DNA of 64,000 nucleotides, taken from assembly GCF_002270055.1 (NCBI RefSeq), contig NZ_NIBG01000008.1, forward strand, positions 28,113-92,112, in the 5' to 3' direction. The notes under the pieces were generated by a model. That model was not told where the DNA came from, ran no database searches, and was given only the letters and a program-made list of their open reading frames with translations. How positions within the stretch are numbered: position 1 is the stretch's first letter; each line of letters starts with the position of its first letter. This stretch comes from Anaeromicrobium sediminis. GTDB lineage: Bacteria > Bacillota > Clostridia > Peptostreptococcales > Thermotaleaceae. Below, piece after piece: positions 10,563 to 42,471 of the stretch. The position numbers and the translations under genes are program-made.

Positions 10563-10631
10563 CCCGTATGTTATTCATGTTAAAACATGAATTCTTCTCA
10601 GAATAAAAAATATAATTCTAAGTTTATTCCA

Positions 10632-10698
10632 CTCATAGGCAAATCATTTATGGTGATTTGGTAGAAACGCCCAGACCTTATTACCAGGCTTATATGAG
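10632..10698 (-). promoter_or_regulatory. purine riboswitch aptamer, guanine class
   Basis: Read on the minus strand: P1 ctcata / tatgag, the P2-L2 segment, then the diagnostic GTTTCTACC, a P3 stem aaatca / tgattt with loop ccataaa, then J3/1 reading gcctatg. The base equivalent to position 74 is C, which in this family selects guanine or hypoxanthine rather than adenine. Confidence 0.93.
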
Positions 10699-10734
10699 AC
10701 TTTATTTAATTTTTTCAATCTTTAATACACTCTT

Positions 10735-10937: not shown

Positions 10938-10970
10938 AGACCACATTAAGAATATATCTTAATATGGTCC
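10938..10970 (-). terminator. hairpin overlapping the 3' end of the chemoreceptor fusion gene
   Basis: The arms gaccatattaagata and tattcttaatgtggtc (minus strand) pair almost fully around the stop codon. The T tract after it is weak. Confidence 0.5.
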
Positions 10971-13471
10971 AGAATTTCACTGATAGAGCTATGCATTTTT
11001 TCTATGATTATATCTTCATATCTGACAATTCCAAGTGGACTAATTCTTACACCTATTACACCTTCCCTTGAAATATATCCATATTGTGGGTGATATAAAA
11101 ATATCCATGGAGTATCTCTTACTATTATTTTTTGTATATCCTTATACATTTGAATTCTCTTTTTAGGATTTATAATCTCCTTAGCTTTGTTCATCATTTC
11201 TGTAACTTCTGGATTATTATATCCAGTAAAATCAGTAAAATTAGATGGATTAAACATTGGCTGGAGGAAATTATCCATATCTCCTGTGTCTGAAATCCAC
11301 CTACTTAAAAATAAGTCACATCTACTTATTATTTCAGGATTTAAATACTTATCTGGACTTACTTTCTCTACAATACATTCAATGCCTACTTCTTTTAAGT
11401 CATCTATAATAAATTGTGCTATTTTGTTAAAGATGGTTTCACTACTTTCATCTCTAACTAAAACTTTAAGCTTTGCATTTTTTATTGAGGCACCTTTTTT
11501 ATTTAAAATTTCTCTTGATAATCTAGGATTATACCCCAGACCCGCTAAATACCCATTATCAATCATATTTGGTGGCATAGGTCCCTTAGCTTCTTCTCCA
11601 AGGCCACCCAATACTTCATCAATAATTTTCTTTTTATTAACTGCCAAGTTAAAGGCTTCTTTAATTTCACTATCTTTCACAAAAATGGAGTTTGACCTCA
11701 AGTTAAATCCAGCATAATAAGTTGCCATTATACTCTTATATTGTATATCTGAAATCTTATCATTAGATAATTCTTCTATTTGGTGTTTGTTATCTATCGT
11801 AATAAAATCACACTCTTTATTTGTAAAACTATTTACTGAATTTTCGCCATCATAGTTTACAATGATTTTATCTACATATGGAATACCACCAAAGTAATCT
11901 TTAAATGCAGTTAATATACACTTTCCTTCTTCTTTACTTTCTATTATATATGGTCCACAACCAGTAAGCTTTCCTTTTTCAACATCTTCTTTACATAATA
12001 TAGAACAAACATATTGACCTAAATTAAGTAAAAAACCGCTGTATGGTTTTGTTAGCTTAATGGAAATTCTATATGTGTCAATTATCTTTATTCCTATAAC
12101 TTCTTTTGCTTTTCCCCCACAATATTCCACTGCACCTTCAACTTGCTCTAAAAACCATCCATTTGCCGACTTCAAGGATGGACTTAGGAGTCTCTCATAG
12201 GAATACTTTATATCTTTAGACGTTATTTCTCTACCATTATGAAATTTAGCACCTTTTCTTAAATTGAATACCCATGTCAAATTATCTTCCTCTACATACC
12301 AGCTCTTCGCAATACCTGAAGTAATTTCTCCCGTAGAACTAATCAATAATAATCCCCCGTGAACGTTATATAAAATTTGAGCACTTTGCGCATCGAAAGC
12401 TAATTGAGGATCATAAGTTAGTGGTTTAGAACTTAAATAGGTTTTAAGGACTGATTCATTTTTCTCTGTTTCTTCAATATTATCTAGAAGCTTTGTAGAT
12501 ATACTTTGAAGATCTTTTGAAACATCTGAAAGAATGTTCAAAGAAGTTTTTGTATACTGGGTATTTAATGATGCGGATTCTACCATAGCCATAACACTTT
12601 CTGATGTTTTATTCATTTCTTCTGTTGAAGATATAATGCTTTCAAGACTTTCAGTTTGTTTTGACACGGCTATATTTATTTCTTCTGCCACACTTGTAGT
12701 GGTTCCCACAGCGCCTATAATATTATTAAATACACCTTTCATATTATTTGCAATTTCATTACCCTCTAATACTTTGTTCATACTTTTATTCATAACATCA
12801 ATGGTCTCATCGATACTTTCATTTATTTCATTAATAGTATTTGAAATCTGCTCTGCTGATTCAGAACTTCTTTGAGCTAGCTTCTTAACCTCTTGAGCAA
12901 CTACTGCAAAGCCTCTTCCAGCTTCTCCAGCCCTTGCTGCTTCAATGGACGCGTTTAATGATAATAAATTTGTATGATTTGCTATATCCTTTATAATTGC
13001 AAGCATATCATTTATATGAGCTGACTTTAAGCTCAAATCATTTACGACTTCTTTTGCATTTTGTACGGATATTTCAATCTCACTCATAGCTTTTATGGAG
13101 TTATCTACCGCCATATTACCTTCTTTGGCTATCCCCATAGTTTCTTCAGCTATAACCTTTGAATTTTCTGTACTTGAAAAAACCTCTTCTGCTAATGCTG
13201 TATAATTACTAATTTCACTTACAACATTTTCTATTGATTCCATTTGTACTTCTACATTATTAGAAATATCATGTATGATTCCTATTAGGTTTTCACCTGC
13301 AAAAGCAGTGTCTTCAATTTTTTCATTTATCCTATTTACTATGCTCCTTTGATTGTTTTTCAAAAGGCCTATTTCATCCATTTTCTTTCCACTACACGCA
13401 ACTTCATTGGCAGTTGTCTGCTCAATAGCTTTACTCTCTAATTTCTTTTTATCTTTTTTCCATTTGAACAT
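10946..13471 (-). CDS. soluble methyl-accepting chemotaxis protein fused to a family 5 solute-binding domain
   Basis: An 841-residue two-part protein. Residues about 45-330 are a chemoreceptor signalling coiled coil, with the CheA/CheW-binding tip near 160-200 ([20 protein letters not shown], then [15 protein letters not shown]). Residues about 345-830 are an ABC-type peptide-binding domain (SBP_bac_5): [20 protein letters not shown] is its signature, and the C-terminal part ends in [13 protein letters not shown]. There is no signal peptide, no lipobox and no transmembrane segment, so both parts should be cytoplasmic. The likely role is sensing an intracellular peptide or similar ligand and passing it to the chemotaxis kinase. 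It sits between purL and the purine permease. Family membership of each half is clear; ligand is unknown. Confidence 0.88.
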
Positions 13472-13671: not shown

Positions 13672-13711
13672 TAGCCCCATATAATATGGGGACTATTTTA
13701 GCTTATTTATA
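13672..13711 (-). terminator. terminator of purL
   Basis: On the minus strand the arms aaaatagtccccatat and atatggggctatttt form a tight stem with a short loop, 26 bases past the purL stop. Confidence 0.8.
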
Positions 13712-42342: not shown

Positions 42343-42376
42343 AAATAACGTACTATAATATACATTAGTAATCTCA

Positions 42377-42443
42377 CTCATAGTTAGGTCATTTACGGAG
42401 ACCATGTAGAAACGTTTAGACCTTATCTCTAAACATATACGAG
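42377..42443 (-). promoter_or_regulatory. purine riboswitch aptamer, guanine class
   Basis: On the minus strand: P1 ctcgta / tatgag, loop L2 with ataagg, the diagnostic GTTTCTAC, a P3 stem tggtc / gacct region with loop ccgtaaa, and J3/1 reading aactatg. The base at position 74 is C, so guanine is the expected ligand. One deviation: the usual TACC reads TACA. Confidence 0.92.
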
Positions 42444-42471
42444 CAAACTAAATATTTGGTTGTTGTTATAT

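Follow-up and report, generated by a model that had tools for sequence, protein, structure and literature searches.

A predicted cytoplasmic chemoreceptor fused to an SBP_bac_5 solute-binding domain in Anaeromicrobium sediminis

Receptors able to read the cell interior are required for chemotaxis that follows metabolism, and only a few such receptors have a known ligand. A stretch of 64,000 nucleotides from Anaeromicrobium sediminis (hereafter the window) raises the question of whether one of its genes encodes such a receptor with a ligand-binding domain built in. A preliminary description, made from the letters alone, had proposed a cytoplasmic chemoreceptor fused to an SBP_bac_5 domain that would read an internal ligand pool, perhaps one linked to purines. 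The gene is a single open reading frame of 841 codons with an ATG start, read on the minus strand at window positions 10946-13471 (Table 1). In Pfam searches, an N-terminal MCP signalling hairpin (MCPsignal, PF00015; residues 108-289, E 2.8e-39, profile positions 4-171 of 172) was followed by an SBP_bac_5 domain (residues 383-745, E 5.2e-68, profile positions 2-366 of 368). The highest 19-residue Kyte-Doolittle mean of the protein was 1.21, which is under membrane level and compares with 1.96 for the leaders of two stand-alone SBPs (L034 and L100); these values come from a hydropathy scan and not from a trained signal-peptide predictor. By such scans the receptor carries no membrane segment, signal peptide or lipobox. 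One open reading frame, both Pfam domains and low hydropathy thus confirm the proposed cytoplasmic fusion. Nor does the protein look like an importer SBP, exported or lipid-anchored to serve an ABC transporter, as it lacks a leader and its neighbours are purL and a gene for an NCS2-type permease.

Table 1. Features of the receptor gene and its surroundings, in window positions
Feature	Position	Strand	Basis
Fused receptor gene, 841 aa	10946..13471	-	single ORF, Pfam, orthologues
N-terminal aromatic and basic motif, residues 1-10	13442..13471	-	F/W and charge counts
MCP hairpin, about residues 30-337 (Pfam MCPsignal 108-289)	12461..13384	-	Pfam, alignment, model
Candidate methylation site, residues 91-100	13172..13201	-	read from sequence; column counts
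Receptor tip, residues 160-200	12872..12994	-	column counts over 30 members
Complete SBP_bac_5 fold, about residues 340-826	10994..12454	-	Pfam 383-745; model and fold matches
C505 codon, in GCGPY where stand-alone SBPs have GTGP/GSGP	11957..11959	-	column counts
D728 codon, aligned with DppA D408	11288..11290	-	alignment; D in 30/30 and 28/30 members
Terminator-like hairpin, between purL and receptor	13675..13691	-	hairpin scan
Terminator-like hairpin, end of receptor gene	10938..10970	-	hairpin scan
Purine riboswitch of downstream NCS2-type permease, outside receptor	10616..10717	-	RF00167, 82.6 bits

The fusion might be an artefact, either an assembly join of two genes that are separate in relatives or a membrane receptor whose upstream segment had been lost to a frameshift. 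Both alternatives, raised in the preliminary description, were sought. An in-frame stop stands five codons upstream of the ATG, and none of the three same-strand frames between the receptor and purL holds a membrane-like open stretch (highest value 0.99). A scan of public genomes with two peptide patterns, whose counts are accordingly lower bounds, gave 30 loci, of which 29 were full-length fusions; the thirtieth (L089), a stand-alone SBP that has a leader, was excluded from the family. Searches of larger samples scored two candidates per genome and likewise give lower bounds, with one genome (G000) counted in the order, class and phylum samples alike. With E allowed up to 1e-60, the order sample yielded matches in 16 of its 393 genomes, and at least 14 carried full-length fusions, the matches in G049 and G118 being SBPs alone with a hydrophobic leader, not counted as fused. 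The fusion was present in at least 9 of 391 genomes of the class sample, in at least 14 of 398 of the phylum sample, and in three of 16 genomes sampled from the window's own taxonomic family, the window's genome included. Named carriers are Clostridium drakei, C. muellerianum, C. thailandense, C. bowmanii, Tissierella praeacuta, Thermobrachium celere, Asaccharospora irregularis, Alkalithermobacter paradoxus and Proteocatella sphenisci. Among the 29 fused loci the highest hydropathy was 1.73, reached at residue 790 of one protein (L087), at its C-terminal end and without a leader, and the remaining 28 stayed at or below 1.50. As these orthologues, from many assemblies, are full-length and share the start and domain order of the window receptor, an assembly join is ruled out; with no membrane-like segment upstream and no result in its favour, the artefact was rejected, its probability being practically negligible.

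In a tree of the SBP halves, 60 fused rows fell on one side of a branch and 42 stand-alone SBPs on the other, with a support of 99.9. The tree is a quick, unrooted maximum-likelihood one that drew warnings of long branches meeting and of uneven composition, and it agrees with a single origin of the fused SBP halves without proving it. In the seven pairs compared, the MCP half had dN/dS values of 0.097-0.191 and the SBP half values of 0.077-0.199, ratios by which both halves are judged to be under purifying selection. No plasmid or phage record covered 80% of the receptor protein. Apart from the full-length members, one genome contains a lone frame of 226 residues (L038 1492-2169; G010:C1:310679-311347) that is 39% identical to receptor residues 604-825 and has no receptor half adjoining it; it may be a remnant, or else part of a different SBP.

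The tip of the hairpin, which we take by homology and from Tsr residue numbers to be the region that contacts CheA and CheW, is conserved. In a 30-row alignment of family members (A3), E177, G185 and F188 occur in every row and R180 in 28; in 30 further members G185 and F188 are again invariant, and E177 and R180 are each kept in 26, the exceptions being four Q and four H, respectively. Residues 91-100 fit what we assume to be the consensus pattern of a methylation site. The alignment of the receptor to 2ch7 contains a seven-residue gap, which bears on heptad class; among membrane MCPs of the host, an alignment without net gap, spanning 279 residues, was obtained for one (L016) and not for others. 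The host genome encodes both CheA and CheW: it has three matches to the CheW domain, one inside a 693-residue frame. About 1 kb off on the same strand lies one CheA dimerisation domain, in a frame of 693 residues that by its place and length is the same frame. Of the 14 genomes in the order sample that carry the fused receptor, 13 have a CheA match, compared with 167 of all 393 (one-sided Fisher p 9.7e-5, kinship ignored); the sole genome without a match, G099, is 88% complete. All 22 receptor genomes checked further, G000 again among them, also contain CheA. From the domains, the conserved tip and this co-occurrence, the protein is very probably a cytosolic receptor-SBP fusion that feeds CheA.

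In four genomes (G926, G1044, G1021 and G974; loci L161, L162, L163 and L164) two copies of the fused receptor stand in tandem, with CheA present. One copy of each pair has Q and H at E177 and R180, and the other has a one-residue deletion and G at E194. These pairs may be receptors that work together with an altered output.

An AlphaFold2 model of the receptor, built with A3, had a mean pLDDT of 80.7 and a pTM of 0.69. Means over ten residues were 81-96 across residues 341-820, 52-64 across residues 141-220, which hold the tip, and below 50 across residues 1-30. In Foldseek and VIA-align comparisons, about residues 337-826 of the model matched MppA, GbpA, AapF, DppE and OppA with Z of about 40, rmsd of 2.2-2.9 and 461-484 residues aligned. 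The receptor is thus predicted to possess a full SBP fold, in keeping with the near-total coverage of the Pfam profile. The preliminary description had called the tip intact, which the column counts bear out, and the binding domain nearly complete, which understated it. Binders of nickel, sialic acid and opines came next in the ranking (Z 35-37.6), and AapF (Z 39.8) was solved with a non-peptide signal; as non-peptide binders score so close to peptide binders, the fold alone does not name the ligand.

D728 aligns with DppA D408, which we take to be the anchor of the peptide amino end, and is D in 30 of 30 A3 rows and 28 of 30 further members; this is no more than suggestive of peptide binding. 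As a mark of the family D728 was weakened by stand-alone SBPs, 32 of 42 of which share the D in one control set and 7 of 32 in an earlier one (32 of 33 sequences kept, L038 having given no control sequence). R673, kept as R in 26 of 30 A3 rows and in 24 of 30 further members, stands two places from the residue aligned with DppA R355, presumably a carboxylate anchor. At residue 505 all 30 A3 rows have C and the 30 further members have C (19) or A (11), compared with T (38) or S (4) in 42 stand-alone SBPs; by these columns GCG or GAG in place of GTGP marks the fused family. The 11 alanines weaken C505 as a candidate invariant redox site. In another genome with two tandem copies (L166, G863), the W-x-x-D motif around D728 is lost in both, which suggests that these copies bind another ligand, or none.

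Cooperation of an SBP with a chemoreceptor has a known form outside the membrane, where maltose-binding protein acts with Tar, a membrane chemoreceptor stimulated by an SBP; there two proteins meet, whereas the present receptor is one soluble chain inside. Such membrane chemoreceptors are alike in that SBP and MCP cooperate, and an SBP census points out that SBP Pfam profiles also pick up sensory domains from signalling proteins of the cytosol (PMC9602780). A C-terminal sensor on a soluble receptor has a precedent in CZB domains, as in TlpD, which shares with our receptor the soluble MCP hairpin and the C-terminal place of the sensor (PMC8262984). The sensor of our receptor is instead a complete SBP_bac_5 domain of about 490 residues, and no CZB match was found in it by Pfam at E up to 1. 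For the sensor itself the nearest precedents are SgrR and DsvR, where a cytoplasmic SBP_bac_5 domain is the C-terminal sensor joined to an N-terminal HTH that controls transcription (PMC13060122); ours is joined to an MCP hairpin. Pfam returned no HTH match in the receptor, so the HTH ahead of the SBP that characterizes SgrR is lacking, and the SgrR model matched weakly over residues 356-538 only. With MppA, GbpA, DppE, OppA and DppA the receptor shares the complete fold and the Asp aligned with DppA D408; it differs from peptide-binding SBPs in having no leader, lipobox or importer operon, in being fused, and in carrying GCGP or GAGP instead of GTGP. No description of an MCP fused to SBP_bac_5 was found in the literature searched (titles and the starts of abstracts). 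We class the protein as a cytoplasmic chemoreceptor with a new type of sensor, whose parts are known and whose union has no description in that literature.

Since a soluble chemoreceptor is here fused to a complete SBP of the peptide type, a receptor for an internal ligand pool, as first proposed, is the best reading. We consider it probable that the C-terminal SBP senses a small cytosolic ligand. The antiparallel N-terminal hairpin would join CheA/CheW arrays. SBPs close on their ligands, and the C-terminal domain would do so on a small cytosolic compound, supplied by import or internal turnover, for which a short peptide or an amino-acid-like compound is the likeliest candidate. A short linker ties the SBP to the C-terminal end of the hairpin, beside its base, so that closure could shift the packing there, alter CheA activity and thereby alter motility. 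Ligand binding, the class of the ligand, the direction of the signal and membership of the arrays are points that we infer. Several observations weigh against this reading: the tip is poorly modelled, G099 has no CheA match, tips are altered in L161-L164, Q and H variants occur at E177 and R180, non-peptide binders are among the fold matches, D728 is common in stand-alone SBPs, and no neighbourhood points to a ligand. Should it be correct, an SBP fold that ordinarily captures solutes outside the cell would here serve motility as an internal sensor, a change of role that SgrR-type proteins exemplify for transcription. The ligand-binding domain being built into the receptor, its ligand can be screened for in vitro, and the family is spread widely enough for a tractable species to be chosen.

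The ligand is less certain than the receptor, and a purine was the first candidate, since in the window the gene stands between purL and the purine-type permease gene. Terminator-like hairpins lie on both sides of the receptor gene, and the purine riboswitch begins the permease unit only downstream of it. Two genomes with receptors 74-76% identical to that of the window (G013 and G014) carry a riboswitch-permease-purE-C-F-M-N cluster on a different contig from the receptor, and no receptor or purL match was present in that purine-cluster stretch. With cut-offs of 30% identity and 60% coverage, none of the genes in the 20 kb around the receptor recurs beside it in any of the 29 other loci. A deoD-like gene, for a purine nucleoside phosphorylase by eye, adjoins the receptor at one of those 29 (L071) and speaks for the purine link, but the separating hairpins and riboswitch, the split arrangement in G013 and G014 and the lack of recurrence led to its rejection on context; the purine setting is local, the ligand suggested by the preliminary description is unsupported, and a purine ligand is very improbable.

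Among the loci examined, no conserved operon pointing to a ligand was seen, and neighbourhoods vary by lineage, all neighbours being named by eye from their sequences; the commonest neighbour cluster, in nine of 30 loci, is by eye a generic ABC ATPase-like one. A promoter scan at the receptor gave fewer sites than in shuffles and so supplies no evidence. Other neighbours seen by eye resemble indolepyruvate oxidoreductase (L083, L084, L088), tryptophanase (L080), Opp (L079), M20 (L167) and U32 (L064, L162-L164) proteins; these amino-acid or peptide genes, identified by eye near some copies, are not counted as evidence. A second purine riboswitch lies at window positions 42361-42462 (minus strand, 77.1 bits). 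In a Marinisporobacter MAG (L061), a T-box leader and a c-di-GMP-I riboswitch lie near the receptor at 10975-11213 and 12903-12989.

That the ligand is a peptide or an amino acid is a tentative assignment, with a chance of somewhat less than even. The same receptor logic could serve a metal chelate, a glutathione-like thiol, a sugar, an opine or a wall fragment, and we regard this as possible, if rather doubtful. Of the closest solved folds, GbpA contains glutathione disulphide, while MppA and DppE are for murein tripeptide; binders of nickel, sialic acid and opines rank next, and GTGP is changed to GCGP across most of the fused family. Peptide binders nevertheless form the majority of the top-ranked folds, and D728, at the place of the amino-end anchor in DppA, is kept in 58 of 60 members. 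Alternatively, the SBP half might sense no ligand and instead dock on another protein, for instance on a peptide importer at its cytosolic face, or dimerise. In favour of this, the aromatic and basic N-terminus could bring the hairpin base to the membrane, yet the SBP fold is complete, D728 is kept, and no importer is conserved beside the gene, Opp-like genes being near in L079 alone (by eye); docking seems unlikely. Slightly less likely still is a receptor that acts through the Che array on an output other than swimming, or that has left the CheA array in some lineages. The altered tips in both tandem copies of the four genomes noted above would suit it, but the tip is conserved in most members and CheA co-occurs with the receptor, in those four genomes too.

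The N-terminus itself, ahead of the hairpin, bears a recurrent motif. F or W occurs at positions 2-7 in 30 of 30 rows, and the net charge over the first 14 residues is at least 2 in 27 of 30. Mean N-terminal charge was 2.80 in the fused rows, compared with 0.54 in 93 neighbour proteins picked by length, ATG start and low hydropathy, and mean F/W was 1.63 compared with 0.18; the cut-offs were set after the sequences had been viewed, start sites follow the alignment, and the rows share ancestry. As a guess, the motif may be a putative weak membrane tether. Put together, the receptor could belong to a widespread cytosolic peptide-sensing family made once by capture of an importer SBP whose leader was lost, through which Bacillota would direct their movement according to the short peptides, imported or turned over, that are present inside the cell, with the N-terminal motif perhaps holding it at the membrane to read peptides on entry; this fuller scenario is conceivable, though we hold it with considerable doubt. 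At one further locus (L177 5426-7498, G631), a FIST-like protein and a soluble protein of 331 residues, seen by eye, adjoin a receptor of 77% identity, and the 331-residue protein begins MIGFKKK, resembling the receptor N-terminus.
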